A stretch of DNA of 53,281 nucleotides from Desulfuromonadales bacterium (lineage in GTDB: Bacteria; Desulfobacterota; Desulfuromonadia; Desulfuromonadales; JACZKF01). The notes under the pieces were generated by a model. The model was not told where the DNA came from and made no database searches. It saw only the letters and a list, made by a program, of their open reading frames with translations. The DNA is taken from NCBI GenBank assembly GCA_029289095.1, contig JARFUG010000014.1, forward strand, positions 1 through 53,281, in the 5' to 3' direction. Of the stretch, positions 18,932 through 53,190 are shown one piece after another. The stretch's first letter is position 1, and the number at the start of each line of letters is the position of its first letter. A program made the position numbers and the translations under genes.

Positions 18932-21208
18932 ATGCCCCTGACCGCATCCGACATTCTGAAATTCCTAGAGAAGAACGCCTCGCGCCCCCTGACGGTCCGG
19001 GAAATCGTCTCCGGGTTCGATCTCCCGCGTCGCGACCGTTCGCGGGCCGTGCGTCTCATCGAGGAAATGGCGCGCGAGGGGACGCTCGTACGCCTGAAGG
19101 GAGAGCGCTATTCCATCCCTCGCCAGGTGAACCTCGTCACGGGGACCGTTTCGGCCCACCGCGACGGATACGGATTCATCTCCTCGCCGGACCGCCCCGA
19201 CGTCTTCATCCCTGCCCGCTACATGCGCGAGGTCATGCATGGCGACCGGGTCGTGGTGCGGGTCGAGCGCGGCTGGCGCGGCGCAAAACCGGAGGGGAGG
19301 GTGATCCGCGTTCTCGATCGCGTCCACCAGACGGTCGTCGGAAGGTACGAGGCGGGTCCCCGCTTCGGATACGTCGTTCCCCTCGATCCCCGCCTGACCC
19401 ACGACGTCTATATCGCCGAGGGGGAGAGTTTCGGTGCGAGACCTGGGCAGATCGTCATCGCCCGCATCGACGCCTACCCGGAGCGGAACCGAAACCCCGA
19501 AGGGGCGATCATCCAGGTGCTTGGCGCTGCCGACGATCCGGAAGTCGAGATCCTCACCATCGTCCACAAGCACGGACTCCCCTACGAATTCCCCCCCGAA
19601 GTGCTCGATGAAGCCGCCGTCGTTCCCGACCGGGTGCGCGACGAGGACAGGAAAGGACGCAGGGATCTGCGCGACATCCCCCTGGTGACCATCGACGGCG
19701 AGACGGCGAAGGATTTCGATGATGCGGTGGCCGTGCGCGACGAAGGGGAGGGGAGAGTGCGCCTCTGGGTCGCCATCGCCGACGTCGCCCACTATGTGGC
19801 CGAAGGAAGCCCCATCGACCGCGAGGCCTACGAGCGATCGACGAGCGTCTATTTTCCAGGACGGGCCGTTCCGATGCTCCCCGAAGCTCTGAGCAACGGG
19901 ATCTGCTCCCTTAACCCCGACGTCGAGCGTCTCGCCATGACGGCCGAGATTCTCTTCGATGCGCAAGGGGCGCGCCTCGAAAGCTCCTTTTATCCCGCGG
20001 TGATTCGCAGCCGGGCGCGCCTGACCTACACCGAGGTCTGGGAGGTGCTGAAGAACGACGGCGAGAGCCCCGCCATTGACGAGGAATTGAGGGGCGGCCT
20101 CCGCCTCATGCGTTCTCTGGCCGAGCGCCTGACCGCCATGAGACGCACGCGCGGAAGTCTCGATTTCGATCTCCCCGAAGCCGAAATCATTCTCGACCTG
20201 CGGGGGAAACCCGAAAATATCGTCCGCGCCGAGCGCAACGCCGCGCACCGCCTCATCGAAGAATTCATGCTTGCCGCCAATGAGGCCGTCGCCGCCTTTC
20301 TGAGCGCCCGCGAGACGCCCATCCTCTATCGGGTCCACGATCCCCCGGCGCCGGAGAAACTGCAGGCTTTTCAGCAGTTCGTCGCCAACTTTAATTACGG
20401 TCTCGTCCTCGAAGACGGCGGCGTCGACCCGCGCCGTCTGCAGGCCCTTCTGGCCGAGGTCGAGGGCAAACCCGAAGAGCGCATGATCAACCAGGTTCTG
20501 CTGCGCAGCATGCGGCAGGCCCGCTACGCACCGGAGAATACAGGACATTTCGGTCTCGCCGCTGATCTCTACTGCCACTTCACCTCTCCGATTCGTCGCT
20601 ACCCCGATCTCATGGTCCACAGGACGTTGAAAAAGGAGCTGACTCGCCGCTCCAGCGCAGCGCATCGGGCCAGGCTCGAAAAGACCCTTCCGACAGCCGG
20701 CGAGCACACCTCGCAGATGGAGCGCCGCGCTATGGAAGCGGAGCGCGAGGTTATCGACCTGAAGAAGTGTCAGTTCATGGCCGACAAGGTGGGCGAGGTT
20801 TTCGATGGCTTCGTTTCCGGGGTGCAGCCCTTCGGTTTCTTCGTCGAACTCAAGGACTATTTCGTCGAGGGGCTGGTGCGCGTCTCATCTCTCCTCGATG
20901 ATTTCTACGAGTACGAAGAGGACCTGCACCGCCTCATCGGCCAGAACCGACGCCGCCAGTTTCAGATCGGCAGCCCCGTACAGGTCACCGTCCAGTCGGT
21001 CAATCTCGACAGGCGAGAGATCGACTTCGCCCTCGCTTTTGAAGGCGGAGGACAAAGGACGGAGGACCGCAAAGGACAGAGGACAGAGGACGGACGACAG
21101 AGGACGGGCGCAAAAGATCGAGGACGGAGGACGGACGACAGAAGGCAGAAGACCGAAAAAGATCGAGGACGGACGACGGATGACAGAGGACGGAGGAAAA
21201 GCAGATGA
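18932..21208 (+). CDS. rnr: Ribonuclease R (RNase II/R family exoribonuclease)
   Basis: A 758-residue 3'-to-5' exoribonuclease. Order of domains: winged-helix N-terminal domain (TASDILKFLEKNASRPLTV), two cold-shock OB folds (VSAHRDGYGFI, about 70-200), the RNB catalytic domain (DGETAKDFDDAVAV with the metal-binding Asp cluster, about 245-570) and an S1 domain (GEVFDGFVSGVQPFGFFVEL). From about residue 706 the sequence becomes a tail of Arg, Asp, Glu, Lys, Thr and Gln encoded by a degenerate 7-base repeat (21050-21206). The ATG at 18932 was chosen for alignment with the family; an upstream in-frame start at 18791 lies inside the mobile-like element. The basic tail may still bind RNA. Confidence 0.93.
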   Translation: MPLTASDILKFLEKNASRPLTVREIVSGFDLPRRDRSRAVRLIEEMAREGTLVRLKGERYSIPRQVNLVTGTVSAHRDGYGFISSPDRPDVFIPARYMREVMHGDRVVVRVERGWRGAKPEGRVIRVLDRVHQTVVGRYEAGPRFGYVVPLDPRLTHDVYIAEGESFGARPGQIVIARIDAYPERNRNPEGAIIQVLGAADDPEVEILTIVHKHGLPYEFPPEVLDEAAVVPDRVRDEDRKGRRDLRDIPLVTIDGETAKDFDDAVAVRDEGEGRVRLWVAIADVAHYVAEGSPIDREAYERSTSVYFPGRAVPMLPEALSNGICSLNPDVERLAMTAEILFDAQGARLESSFYPAVIRSRARLTYTEVWEVLKNDGESPAIDEELRGGLRLMRSLAERLTAMRRTRGSLDFDLPEAEIILDLRGKPENIVRAERNAAHRLIEEFMLAANEAVAAFLSARETPILYRVHDPPAPEKLQAFQQFVANFNYGLVLEDGGVDPRRLQALLAEVEGKPEERMINQVLLRSMRQARYAPENTGHFGLAADLYCHFTSPIRRYPDLMVHRTLKKELTRRSSAAHRARLEKTLPTAGEHTSQMERRAMEAEREVIDLKKCQFMADKVGEVFDGFVSGVQPFGFFVELKDYFVEGLVRVSSLLDDFYEYEEDLHRLIGQNRRRQFQIGSPVQVTVQSVNLDRREIDFALAFEGGGQRTEDRKGQRTEDGRQRTGAKDRGRRTDDRRQKTEKDRGRTTDDRGRRKSR

Positions 21209-21251
21209 CCCTGCGCCCTTGCTGTCCTCCGTCCTCTGTCCTCTGTCCTCA
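21050..21251. repeat. Heptanucleotide array, purine arm in rnr and pyrimidine arm after it
   Basis: Words such as GGACAGA, GGACGGA and CGACAGA recur at mostly 7-base spacing from 21050 to about 21195, inside the rnr reading frame. From about 21222 to 21251 the complementary CTGTCCT/CCGTCCT words follow, so the two arms can pair. Because 7 is not a multiple of 3, the encoded peptide has a 7-residue pseudo-repeat. Confidence 0.85.
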
Positions 21252-21267
21252 GGCCCCAGAGATCTGA

Positions 21268-23303: not shown

Positions 23304-24992
<1,689 letters not shown>

Positions 24993-25004
<12 letters not shown>

Positions 25005-25038
25005 GCTGCACGCCTTGGCGTGCAGCTCAATCATCGGC
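24993..25038. repeat. Perfect 22-bp palindrome across the pilB stop codon
   Basis: Bases 24993-25014 are an exact inverted copy of 25017-25038, with only TT between. It covers the last pilB codons and the stop. No T-run follows, so it is not a standard terminator; it may be an mRNA-stabilising hairpin or half of a duplicated gene end. Confidence 0.9.
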
Positions 25039-25042
25039 GTAG

Positions 25043-25152
25043 CCAGAATCCAGAATCCAGGAGCCAGGAGTAGAATCAAAAACCTGAAACCTGAAACCTG
25101 GGATGTGGACCTGGCCTTTGTATTTCTCCTGGCTTCTGGCTTCTGGATTCTG
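25043..25152. repeat. Inverted heptanucleotide arrays before pilT
   Basis: The left arm 25043-25070 has CCAGAAT and CCAGGAG words; the right arm 25126-25152 has CTCCTGG, CTTCTGG and ATTCTGC. The arms pair at about 25 of 28 positions. Between them are ACCTGAA words, also 7-base. The right arm ends about 20 bases before the pilT start. Confidence 0.85.
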
Positions 25153-25171
25153 CTTAAAACAAGGATCATCA

Positions 25172-26299
25172 ATGTCTACCGAAAACAAACCAGGCATGCA
25201 GGTATTGCTCAAGGCGATGGTCGAGGCGGGGGCTTCGGACCTGCATATTACGACCGGGGCGCCCCCCATGCTGCGGATCGACGGGAAAGTCTCGCCTCTC
25301 AAGCTGCCGCCCCTGGGGGCAACCGATACGAAACAACTGTGCTACAGCATTCTCACCGATTCTCAGAAGAGGAAGTTCGAGGAGGAGAGCGAGCTCGACC
25401 TTTCCTTCGGAGTCAAGGGCCTATCGCGCTTCCGCGGCAACCTCTTCATCCAGCGCGGCGCTCTCGCCGGAGTCTTCCGGCGCATACCGTTCAAGATCCT
25501 CACCTTCGACGAGCTCGGTCTTCCTCCCGTCATCCGCGAGATCTCCCGAAAGCCGAGGGGGCTGGTCCTTGTCACCGGGCCGACGGGCAGCGGAAAATCG
25601 ACTACCCTGGCGACGATCATCGACACCATCAATCAGGAGCGTCACGACCATATCGTCACCATCGAAGACCCCGTCGAATTCATTCACAAGCACAAGAACT
25701 GCATCGTCAACCAGCGGGAAGTCGGCGCCGACACACAGTCGTTCAAGAAAGCGCTCAAATACATCCTGCGGCAGGACCCAGACGTTGTTCTTCTCGGTGA
25801 GTTGCGCGACCTCGAAACGATCGAGGCCGCCCTCACCATTGCTGAGACGGGGCATCTCTGCTTCGCGACCCTGCACACCAACGGCTGCGTCCAGACGATC
25901 AACCGCGTCGTCGACGTCTTTCCCACTCATCAGCAGCAGCAGGTGCGCACGCAGCTCTCCTTCGTCCTCGAGGGGGTCATCTCGCAGACGCTTCTGCCCA
26001 AAATCCATGGCTCCGGGCGGGCTCTGGCTCTGGAGGTCATGGTCCCCAACGTCGCCATCCGCGCTCTCATCCGCGACGACAAGGTCCATCAGATCTACTC
26101 GCAGATGCAGATGGGGCAGGAGAAATTCGGCATGCAGACGATGAACCAGTCCCTTTTCATGCTCTATCACAAGAAACAGATATCGATGGAAATGGCCCTA
26201 GCCCGCTCCAGCGACACGGAAGAACTCAAGCAGATGATCGCCAATCCGACGTCGGTTCTGCGCCGGAATGTGCCCGGCGCGGTTGGGGGCAGGGGGTAG
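25172..26299 (+). CDS. pilT: Type IV pilus retraction ATPase PilT
   Basis: A 375-residue hexameric ATPase that drives pilus depolymerisation and twitching. It has Walker A GPTGSGKST from Gly136, the Asp box IEDPVEF, Walker B LLGELRD, His box TGHLCFATLHTNG, and the PilT-specific C-terminal AIRALIRD motif needed for retraction. ATG 25172 with AAGGAT upstream fits the family start; in-frame codons back to 25103 lie in the repeat. It follows pilB, separated by the inverted heptanucleotide arrays. Confidence 0.97.
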   Translation: MSTENKPGMQVLLKAMVEAGASDLHITTGAPPMLRIDGKVSPLKLPPLGATDTKQLCYSILTDSQKRKFEEESELDLSFGVKGLSRFRGNLFIQRGALAGVFRRIPFKILTFDELGLPPVIREISRKPRGLVLVTGPTGSGKSTTLATIIDTINQERHDHIVTIEDPVEFIHKHKNCIVNQREVGADTQSFKKALKYILRQDPDVVLLGELRDLETIEAALTIAETGHLCFATLHTNGCVQTINRVVDVFPTHQQQQVRTQLSFVLEGVISQTLLPKIHGSGRALALEVMVPNVAIRALIRDDKVHQIYSQMQMGQEKFGMQTMNQSLFMLYHKKQISMEMALARSSDTEELKQMIANPTSVLRRNVPGAVGGRG

Positions 26300-26344
26300 G
26301 GCTCGAAGGGCGCCAGGAAAATCTTTATAAGACCATGTTTTTAC

Positions 26345-26493
26345 TTGGTGTCTTGGAGCGTGGTGGTGGGTCTTTGGATTTTTGCGATTTGATCAAAGGT
26401 TAAAGGTAAAAGCTTCACGACGGATTCATTGTGATGGTAGACGGTCGGGCCTGGGTTTCTCCTGGCTCCCGGCTACTGGCTCCTGGATACTGC
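26345..26493. repeat. Heptanucleotide words before pilC
   Basis: The clearest part is 26459-26493: five uninterrupted 7-base words including CTCCTGG and ending ATACTGC, 17 bases before the pilC start. Weaker 7-base periodicity (TTGG words near 26345-26380, AAAGGTT/AAAGGTA near 26394-26410) lies upstream in the same gap. Confidence 0.75.
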
Positions 26494-26510: not shown

Positions 26511-27728
26511 ATGCCCAAGTACTCCTGGGAAGGGAAGACCCGCACCGGGCAGGTGCAAAAAGGGGATATGGAGGCGCCCAACGAAGAGGCCGTAACCGCG
26601 ACTCTTCGGCGCCAGGGGATCATGCCCTCCAAGATCAAGGCGCGCGGCAAGGGGCTCGACGTGGAGATCAAGATTCCCGGGCTCGAGCCGAAGGTGACGA
26701 CCAAGGACCTTGTCGTCTTCACCCGCCAGTTCGCCACCATGATCGACGCCGGTCTTCCCCTTGTTCAGTGTCTCGATATTCTCGGGCGTCAGCAGGAGAA
26801 CAAGACCTTCCGCAGGATCCTCATCGACGTGAAGGAGAGCGTCGAATCGGGCTCCACCTTCGCCGAGGCGCTAAGAAAGCATCCGAAGGCCTTCGACGAT
26901 CTCTACGTCAACCTGGTGGCGGCGGGGGAAGTGGGGGGGATTCTCGACACCATCCTCAATCGCCTCGCCGCCTACATCGAAAAAGCTCTCAAGCTCAAGA
27001 AGAAGGTCAAGAGCGCCATGACCTACCCGACGACCATCGTCGGGATCGCGGTGCTCGTCATCTCCGTCATCCTCATCTTCGTCATTCCGGCTTTCGAGTC
27101 GATGTTCGCCGACTTCGGCGGCAGCCTCCCGGCGCCGACGCAAATCGTCATCAACCTCAGCAACTTCATCCAGAGCTATATCCTGGTGATCATCGGCGTT
27201 GTCGTTCTCGTGATCTTCGCCTTCAAGAGGACGTACAGGACCCAAAAAGGACGCGCCGTCATCGACGATGTCGCCCTCAAGCTTCCGATCATGGGAGTGC
27301 TCATTCGCAAGGTCGCGGTCGCCAAGTTCACCCGCACGTTGGGAACCATGATTTCGAGCGGCGTGCCGATCCTCGACGGCCTCGATATCGTGGCGAAGAC
27401 GGCCGGAAACAAGACGGTCGAAAAGGCGATCTACAAGGTCCGTCAGAGCATCAGTGAAGGAAAGACGATCGCCGAGCCTCTCGAGAAGTCCGGCGTCTTC
27501 CCCCCCATGGTCTGCCAGATGATCAATGTCGGCGAACAGTCCGGTTCGATCGACACCATGCTCAACAAGATCGCAGACTTCTACGACGACGAGGTCGACG
27601 ATGCGGTGGCGAACCTCACCGCCATGATGGAACCGCTCCTCATGCTCTTTCTCGGGACAACCGTCGGAGGACTCGTCATCGCCATGTACCTCCCCATCTT
27701 TCAGCTCGCGGGGACGGTCGGGGGGTAA
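26511..27728 (+). CDS. pilC: Type IV pilus platform protein PilC
   Basis: A 405-residue inner-membrane protein with two T2SSF (GspF-like) cytoplasmic domains and three membrane segments: one near TYPTTIVGIAVLVISVILIF, one near YILVIIGVVVLVIFAF, and one at the C-terminus (MLFLGTTVGGLVIAMYLPIF). It links PilB/PilT movement to pilin insertion or removal. AGAGG and an ATG follow the heptanucleotide array. Its stop overlaps the start of pilS (TAATG). Confidence 0.97.
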   Translation: MPKYSWEGKTRTGQVQKGDMEAPNEEAVTATLRRQGIMPSKIKARGKGLDVEIKIPGLEPKVTTKDLVVFTRQFATMIDAGLPLVQCLDILGRQQENKTFRRILIDVKESVESGSTFAEALRKHPKAFDDLYVNLVAAGEVGGILDTILNRLAAYIEKALKLKKKVKSAMTYPTTIVGIAVLVISVILIFVIPAFESMFADFGGSLPAPTQIVINLSNFIQSYILVIIGVVVLVIFAFKRTYRTQKGRAVIDDVALKLPIMGVLIRKVAVAKFTRTLGTMISSGVPILDGLDIVAKTAGNKTVEKAIYKVRQSISEGKTIAEPLEKSGVFPPMVCQMINVGEQSGSIDTMLNKIADFYDDEVDDAVANLTAMMEPLLMLFLGTTVGGLVIAMYLPIFQLAGTVGG

Positions 27729-37407: not shown

Positions 37408-37422
37408 AATGTCAGTTGAAAG

Positions 37423-37485
37423 CTCCTCACTCCTCTGCCCTCTGTCCTCTGTCCTTGCCTCTTGCTCCTGGCTCCTGGCTCCCGC
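37423..37485. repeat. Nine-word heptanucleotide array after pilD
   Basis: Nine 7-base words without an indel (63 bases). The word changes from CTCCTCA through GTCCTCT to CTCCTGG and CTCCCGC while the phase is kept. It ends 17 bases before the -35 box of the pilM promoter. Confidence 0.9.
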
Positions 37486-37501
37486 TTTCGTATTAATTCC
37501 T

Positions 37502-42772: not shown

Positions 42773-43315
42773 ATGCGCGACGAGCGAAATATCATTCTCA
42801 TCGGCTTCATGGGGTCGGGCAAAAGCACCGTGGCCGAGGTCCTCCACGGGATGGGCTTCGATTGCATCGACCTCGACGCGCTGATCGTCGAGCGCAGCGG
42901 TCGCACCATCCCAGAGATCTTCGCACGGGACGGGGAAGGCGTTTTCCGCGATCTCGAAACCGAGGCCCTTCGCTCCCTGGCAGGCCTTCGACGGGCTGTC
43001 GTTTCCACCGGCGGCGGGATCGTCGGTCGGGAGGAGAACTGGATTCTCATGAAGGCGCTCGGAACCATCGTCTATCTACAAGCCGGATGGGAGACGCTGC
43101 GCACCCGCCTCGCCGCAGGGGAGGGGAGACCCTTGGCCGATAAGAGCGACTGGTCCAAGGTCGAAGCCTTGTGGCGGCGCCGTCTCCCCCTCTACGAAAA
43201 GGCCGATCTCATCGTCGATACAGACGACCGCACTCCCGAGGAAGTTGCGGAGAGGATTATGAAGGCAGTATCCAGGAGTTGGGAGTTAGGAGTTACCTCC
43301 CCCGGCCCCTCCTAA
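42773..43315 (+). CDS. aroK: Shikimate kinase
   Basis: A 180-residue enzyme (shikimate to shikimate 3-phosphate). Walker A IGFMGSGKST, then GFDCIDLDALIVERSGRTIPEIF, GEGVFRDLETEAL and the STGGGIV motif, and the lid region RTRLAAGEGRPL. ATG 42773 fits the family start; a TTG at 42746 is in frame. The last ~12 residues (SWELGVTSPGPS) are encoded by repeat DNA (GGAGTTA words and a GGAGGGG element), not by family sequence. Confidence 0.93.
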   Translation: MRDERNIILIGFMGSGKSTVAEVLHGMGFDCIDLDALIVERSGRTIPEIFARDGEGVFRDLETEALRSLAGLRRAVVSTGGGIVGREENWILMKALGTIVYLQAGWETLRTRLAAGEGRPLADKSDWSKVEALWRRRLPLYEKADLIVDTDDRTPEEVAERIMKAVSRSWELGVTSPGPS

Positions 43316-51139: not shown

Positions 51140-51285
51140 TCCCCCTCCCTGATTAGGAGGGGGCGGGGGGGTGGTAGAGACCGAGCAGATCTTACCACCC
51201 CCGACCCCTCCTAAAATAGGAGGGGAGAAAAACATGTCTTCCGTCCTTCCCTTTAGCTCTTGGACTCCTGACTCCTGGATACTGC
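51140..51285. repeat. GGAGGGG triple-dyad element plus heptanucleotide array before HAD gene
   Basis: 51140-51229 has the dyads CCCCTCCCTGATTAGGAGGGG, GGGGGTGGTA...TACCACCCCC and CCCCTCCTAAAATAGGAGGGG. From 51236 there are 7-base words (GTCTTCC, GTCCTTC, CTCTTGG), one inserted base, then CTCCTGG and ATACTGC up to three bases before the ATG at 51288. Confidence 0.85.
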
Positions 51286-51905: not shown

Positions 51906-51918
51906 CCTTGAAGGGCAA

Positions 51919-52009
51919 TTTTGAATTTTGAATTGAATCTTGAACCTTTGGCCTTTCACCTCTGTCGTCCGTCCTCCGTCCTCCGTCCTCTGGCTCCCAA
52001 CTCCCGCCC
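51919..52009. repeat. Thirteen-word heptanucleotide array between HAD and rsbW-like genes
   Basis: Thirteen consecutive 7-base words with no indel (91 bases). The text drifts from TTTTGAA to TTTGGCC, then TCCGTCC, and finally CCCAACT and CCCGCCC, in one phase. It fills the space between convergent genes. Confidence 0.92.
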
Positions 52010-52911: not shown

Positions 52912-53016
52912 GCAGAATCCAGAATCCAGAATCCAGGAGCCAGGAGCCAGGAGAAAATCAGGTTCGAGGCCCGAGGCCCGAGGCCGGAGGCAAAAGGCCA
53001 AAGGGTTTAATTCAAA
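52912..53016. repeat. Fifteen-word heptanucleotide array upstream of STAS gene
   Basis: Fifteen in-phase 7-base words (105 bases). Read on the minus strand toward the STAS gene, it passes from TTTGGCC and TCGGGCC words to CTCCTGG three times and ends in ATTCTGG/ATTCTGC, the same ending as the arrays before pilT and pilC. It ends about 80 bases before the start codon. Confidence 0.92.
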
Positions 53017-53027
53017 AAATTACCCGA

Positions 53028-53190
53028 TTAGTACTGATCTTCCGCATGGGTCTTCTCCCCCTCCTGGATCAGGAGGGGGGCGGGGGGTGGTAGAGATCAA
53101 GAAGACCTTACCACCCCCAGCCCCTCCTAAAATAGGAGGGGAGAAAATACGCCTCACCTTACCCCTTCTCGGGAAGGGGATATTTTTGGA
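53028..53190. repeat. GGAGGGG triple-dyad element with long flanks
   Basis: Starts ATTAGTACTGATCTTCCGC (shared with 45728), then CCCCTCCTGGATCAGGAGG dyad, GGGGGTGGTA...TACCACCCCC, and CCCCTCCTAAAATAGGAGGGG. GGGAAGGGGATATTTTTGGA downstream resembles text after the copy at 45850. The 450-base end of the window holds no gene. Confidence 0.88.

Follow-up and report, generated by a model that had tools for sequence, protein, structure and literature searches.

Heptanucleotide arrays in the gene spacers of a Desulfuromonadales genome follow a polarity set by position, not by the repeated word

The spacers between genes of a Desulfuromonadales genome carry tandem heptanucleotide arrays, and the rule that governs their placement does not depend on the repeated word. 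The layout of a tandem spacer is stop codon, purine arm, loop, pyrimidine arm, SD, start codon, where purine-sense denotes an arm whose G-rich strand is sense (stop side) and pyrimidine-sense one whose C-rich strand is sense (start side). A CTCCTGG array is one half of such an inverted pair and not a one-way promoter element.

Genome, sample and definitions

The source is a draft genome (Desulfuromonadales bacterium, GCA_029289095.1) with 3.5 Mb in 154 contigs, and the window is the 53,281-nt stretch of contig JARFUG010000014.1 that was analysed as a whole. Counts beyond the window come from sampled stretches totalling 1.24 Mb, the window included; some were picked for array matches and the rest by contig number, which biases array density but not orientation. 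Placement counts for CTGG arrays in tandem spacers refer to a first 0.87 Mb subset. Counts over all words and the statistics on two-arm spacers, folding, convergent and divergent spacers and array endings refer to the full 1.24 Mb. A simple codon model served for gene calling, and start positions are approximate.

Arrays in the window

CTCCTGG occurs 32 times in the window, compared with 9.5 ± 2.8 times in shuffled sequence, and the window contains 18 period-7 stretches, where every other period between 4 and 21 gives 0–8 (runner-up period 14, with 8). The CTCCTGG arrays are thus not a product of chance. An earlier note on this DNA had described four of them, before pilT, pilC, a HAD gene and a STAS gene, all oriented toward the gene and ending in ATTCTGC or ATACTGC, and all four are present as and where it described them. 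Pfam matches back pilB, pilT, pilC and the STAS gene, while HAD is solely that note's label. The reversed partner it proposed for the pilT array was likewise recovered: the two 27-nt arms (25044–25070 and 25126–25152) are 93% complementary and lie 55 nt apart. Its count of four out of four is real but describes a selected set, as the array at 43261–43295 and a CTCCTGG array at 37465–37485, which is located after a stop and has no ATTCTGC ending, behave differently. The main features are as follows.

21040–21201, plus strand: purine-sense GGACGGA/GGACAGA arrays within the RNase R gene, at its 3' end (RNB domain, Pfam)
21216–21255, plus strand: pyrimidine-sense CTGTCCT array in the spacer after the RNase R gene, complementing the arrays at 21040–21201
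23304–25004, plus strand: pilB, upstream cistron (stop codon 25002–25004; Pfam T2SSE and MshEN)
24993–25038, no strand: perfect palindrome over the pilB stop codon, with 22-nt arms and a 2-nt centre
25044–25070, minus strand: purine-sense stop-side arm CAGAATCCAGAATCCAGGAGCCAGGAG; the minus strand reads CTCCTGG..ATTCTG
25080–25100, plus strand: AAACCTG x3 array inside the loop of the predicted hairpin
25126–25153, plus strand: pyrimidine-sense start-side arm before pilT, CTCCTGGCTTCTGGCTTCTGGATTCTGC, ending in ATTCTGC and followed by TTAAAA
25172–26299, plus strand: pilT, downstream cistron (ATG at 25172; Pfam T2SSE)
26459–26493, plus strand: pyrimidine-sense array before pilC, CTCCTGGCTCCCGGCTACTGGCTCCTGGATACTGC, ending in ATACTGC and followed by CTTAAA; stop-side arm not clear
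26511–27728, plus strand: pilC (ATG at 26511; Pfam T2SSF)
37417–37491, plus strand: mixed pyrimidine-sense array immediately downstream of a stop codon, contrary to the placement rule
43261–43295, plus strand: purine-sense array within the shikimate kinase gene, at its 3' end (SKI domain, Pfam)
51264–51285, plus strand: pyrimidine-sense array ACTCCTGACTCCTGGATACTGC, separated by 2 nt from the ATG (51288) of the gene labelled HAD
51914–52008, no strand: convergent spacer in which the left stop has a G-rich AATTTTG arm and the right stop a C-rich CCTCCGT arm
52912–52953, minus strand: array before the STAS gene, CTCCTGGCTCCTGGCTCCTGGATTCTGGATTCTGGATTCTGC; minus-strand order CTCCTGG x3, ATTCTGG words, terminal ATTCTGC

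The start of the STAS gene (minus strand) is 52880 in the list of open reading frames and 52832 according to the codon-model gene caller. A search of the 53,281-nt window against Rfam returned no match at the gathering score.

Several other repeats accompany the arrays. The palindrome at 24993–25038 consists of the pilB 3' end and its inverted copy in the spacer, which is what a template switch would produce. In the 21040–21255 region, the RNase R gene itself has a 3' end built of GGACGGA/GGACAGA arrays, which code for a C-terminal tail. A separate dispersed palindrome family (...AGGAGGGG...GGGGGGTGGTAG...) occurs in spacers with heptad arrays at 53077–53124 of the window and on contigs C12, C105 and C125, and a further spacer repeat family with CTTGGTG/CACCAAG words lies at 26330–26420 and on contig C104 (3896–4129).

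Position, polarity and period

The 0.87 Mb subset contains 33 CTGG arrays in clean tandem spacers. All 13 with CTCCTGG in sense lie 11–28 nt before a start codon, where random placement would put 2.7 in the 10–31 nt band. Among the 20 in complement sense, 16 are no more than 6 nt from the upstream stop codon (1.8 expected at random), and the remaining four are 8, 12, 18 and 39 nt away from it. Outside tandem spacers, one convergent and one divergent spacer of the subset hold a CTGG array each. The idea that the arrays point toward the downstream gene therefore holds for the 13 before starts, but the other 20 of 33 have the opposite orientation and follow stops. Scoring orientation relative to the next gene, the check proposed in the earlier note, gives 13 versus 20, which looks random, so this check would have wrongly discarded the idea; sorted by position, the same arrays are almost perfectly ordered. 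The defined array end suggested by the four examples extends to the genome-wide sample: a word composed of ATT, ATA, ATG or CTA plus CTG is gene-proximal in 43 of 77 CTGG arrays and distal in 10 of 77 (P = 2.6e-8).

When all heptamer words were counted, stop-side arrays were G-rich in sense in 62 cases and C-rich in 13, and start-side arrays were C-rich in 44 and G-rich in 8 (P = 2e-14). Removal of the CTGG words left the polarity in place, with 35 G-rich and 6 C-rich arrays on the stop side and 5 and 28, respectively, on the start side (P = 9e-10). Inspected spacers displayed the same layout with GGAGTGA/CTCCTCA, GGGACGC/GTCCCGC, AAGGCCA and other words. In convergent spacers, each of the 14 arrays has its G-rich strand in sense relative to the gene at whose stop codon it lies. 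Divergent spacers are depleted, holding 6 of 147 arrays although they make up 20% of spacer length (P = 3e-8). Array-free spacers show no G/C skew of this kind.

Period 7 dominates in the tandem spacers of the 1.24 Mb sample (127 arrays, compared with 12 of period 8 and 3 of period 6). Identity at lag 7 is at background in the coding end, climbs from the stop codon and drops about 15 nt before the start. Two simple sources of this pattern were considered and rejected. Avoidance of SD sites is not the sole cause of the polarity, as 23 arrays without SD-like tetramers still obey the rule (P = 0.012), as do all 14 convergent arrays. The stop codon does not seed the word either, given the weak lag-7 identity (0.25/0.53/0.44) across the codon itself.

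A period-7 array is present in the last 60 nt of 23 of the 89 contig ends examined, compared with 2% of random 60-mers, and the draft assembly breaks at long arrays. Contigs with such ends include C1, C6, C10, C24, C29 and C65.

Pairing and folding of the two arms

At least two arrays were detected in 35 tandem spacers. Thirty of these hold one arm of each kind, and the order is purine then pyrimidine in 30 of 30. The arms within a spacer share a word family, with a complementarity of 16.7 compared with 10.5 ± 1.0 after swapping of partners. Within the CTGG family (n = 15 two-arm spacers), real partners (22.6) were no more complementary than swapped ones (24.5), which indicates that the match is one of family rather than word order, with no word-by-word covariation. 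Mirror duplication of the arms is unsupported by this comparison. The slightly lower value of the real CTGG partners possibly reflects avoidance of perfect palindromes or an assembly bias.

A single array was detected in 56 of the 91 array-bearing tandem spacers. Arrays for which no partner was detected keep the polarity (26 purine and 6 pyrimidine on the stop side, 4 and 11 on the start side; P = 0.0007), which they may have inherited from a pair whose other arm was lost.

Two-arm spacers have a mean folding z of −4.1, compared with −1.8 for array-free spacers (P = 0.001). The pilB–pilT spacer with its flanks reaches z = −9.6, partly because of the separate palindrome with 22-nt arms. Folds no better than those of shuffled sequences were obtained for the pilT–pilC spacer, which has one clear arm (z = −0.5), and for some two-arm spacers (contigs C5 and C54).

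Other genomes and orthologous spacers

The array words are rare within the class, with matches in 5 of 276 other genomes. When 84,980 species were scanned, the CTCCTGG..ATTCTG order turned up in Nitrospirae, Verrucomicrobiota, Acidobacteria, Phycisphaerae, Leptolyngbya, Chryseolinea and others; the Nitrospirae genome and the Acidobacteria genome each contain dozens of copies and none of the reversed control pattern. The placement rule is obeyed by samples from three other phyla combined (22/6 and 1/14; P = 9e-6) and by all seven other genomes taken together (34/9 and 4/29; P = 7e-9). By itself, the Verrucomicrobiota sample is mixed, and being small it weighs little.

We compared the orthologous pil spacers in 29 genomes belonging to the order. 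In 5 of these 29 relatives, the pilB–pilT spacer is occupied by heptad arrays of unrelated words, most of them purine then pyrimidine, with words such as GGTTCGA/TCGAACC, GGTAGCG/CGCGCCA and TGACTGG/ATCACTA. The pilT–pilC spacer has arrays in three relatives as well, one of them weak, and most other relatives have shorter pil spacers without arrays. At this one orthologous pilB–pilT spacer of a conserved operon, individual lineages have thus gained arrays or replaced them.

Interpretation

We tentatively favor the reading that the arrays are arms of intercistronic and 3'-end RNA hairpins, made of heptad words with fast turnover and serving a REP/BIME-like role; from the computational evidence this may well be correct. 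The spacers would be transcribed by read-through. In the mRNA the purine arm would begin at the stop codon and its pyrimidine complement would end just before the next SD, or, in convergent pairs, at the opposite stop. A hairpin formed in the cell would fold the spacer back and bring the stop codon near the next SD. Because the words repeat every 7 nt and both arms draw on one word family, many pairing registers would be available and slippage in copy number, the presumed source of the arrays, would be tolerated. Structured RNA a few nucleotides from the stop would probably affect expression by acting on termination or stalling, on coupling with the following cistron, or on how the upstream message decays from its 3' end.

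The main rival, which we regard as possible but somewhat doubtful, is that the arrays are functionless spacer filler, generated in dispensable DNA by 7-nt slippage (possibly linked to the polymerase footprint) together with inverted template switching, and limited by coding sequence and SD sites. Array extent is indeed bounded by coding sequence and SD, the words are sporadic and lineage-specific, and the arms share family but not word order. Furthermore, the 3' end of pilB recurs, perfectly matched and inverted, in the pilB–pilT spacer itself, the enrichment at contig ends (23/89 versus 2%) is consistent with long unstable repeats, and heptamer slippage has been proposed earlier (cited in PMC4692102). 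What filler leaves unexplained is the G-rich sense after stops (62 of 75), the purine-then-pyrimidine order in every two-arm case (30/30) and the convergent polarity (14/14).

Hairpins that stop or reduce transcription between cistrons, in both directions for convergent pairs, are an improbable account of the arrays. Convergent and tandem placement together with divergent depletion would suit it, and Xanthomonas transcripts begin or end more often at G4-forming repeats (PMC4692102). However, the sole terminator-like site between pilB and pilT is short, weak, outside the arms and no more than shuffled sequences give, no T run was seen by eye after the arms, and the arrays interrupt a conserved pil operon.

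Mobility, which the earlier note had raised, is very unlikely, whether by a transposase (REPIN/RAYT-like) or by reverse transcription. Hundreds of dispersed copies with defined ends and identical words in distant phyla would fit a mobile repeat, but the genome encodes no reverse transcriptase, the examined flanks of its four Y1 transposase genes are free of CTGG arrays, loops are not conserved and one genome holds many words. Least probable of all are binding sites for a word-specific protein (IHF/HU-type or CsrA-type) or G-quadruplexes: GGGAATC repeats do form G4 in vitro (PMC4692102) and IHF/HU was a guess for G. metallireducens (PMC2700814), but many unrelated words obey the rule, including words without GGG and without GGA-type motifs, words differ at the one orthologous pilB–pilT spacer, and a single binder cannot recognise them all.

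Beyond the hairpin reading in this genome, it is conceivable, though more doubtful, that word-independent heptad hairpins arise independently in operon spacers across phyla, with period, polarity and site kept while the sequence turns over. If such a class is real, it would imply a general process that makes 7-nt arrays, combined with selection for RNA structure in spacers. If the layout and not the word is what persists, a genome with dozens of words would allow many tests in parallel, and two old questions would become testable: why 7 is the preferred period, and why it is the G-rich strand that comes after the stop.

Comparison with known systems

Cyanobacterial STRR are tandem intergenic heptanucleotide repeats with several words, features that the present arrays share, as compared here at one Leptolyngbya locus.

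The closest description of placement concerns heptamer repeats with the words GGGAATC and GGGGA(C/T)T in Xanthomonas and Nostoc (Rehm et al. 2015, PMC4692102). The G-rich strand of these repeats is coding near stops and non-coding near starts; the repeats lie between aligned ORFs and are depleted between divergent ones, form 70–75 inverted pairs per Xanthomonas genome and are mostly transcribed. The authors discussed G-quadruplexes and could not assign a role. The arrays reported here share the intergenic period of 7, nearly the same placement, the inverted pairs and the divergent depletion. They differ from that single word family in having many words, with one family shared per spacer, in additional phyla, and in that words differ at an orthologous spacer. 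Unlike GGGNATC-type G4 words, the main words here (CCAGGAG, CCAGAAT and AATTTTG) lack GGG; most cannot form G4s with three G tiers, and G4 formation is therefore not the general cause.

A related word occurs in Geobacter metallireducens, where multicopy sites include class 3, tandem MTYCTGA, as well as class 2, with 16 to 48 sequences per class and proposed as IHF/HU sites (Aklujkar et al. 2009, PMC2700814). Related words and inverted pairs also occur among our arrays, which may resemble these sites in their tandem heptamers and opposite-strand pairs at variable distance; the text consulted gives no stop/start rule for the sites. The TAACTGA repeats of marine Beggiatoaceae are intergenic and mostly in one orientation just before start codons (MacGregor 2015, PMC4679880). 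They are intergenic heptamers sporadic across phyla, as here, but consist of one word in direct repeats, with a single inverted case and without a stop-side arm.

REP/BIME elements of E. coli are palindromes of intergenic DNA, and some of them lie no further than 15 nt from a stop codon (PMC12306157). The present arrays are likewise intergenic palindromes near stops with few between divergent genes, but they are built of heptads and no REP-like head was seen. The examined flanks of four Y1_Tnp genes contained no CTGG arrays; with no RAYT linked to them in the DNA examined, we do not file the arrays as REPs.

Heptamer repeats have so far been described piecemeal, in cyanobacteria, Xanthomonas, Geobacter and Beggiatoa, each explained by its own word. 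If it is the layout and not the word that is conserved, these earlier word-based explanations need revision.
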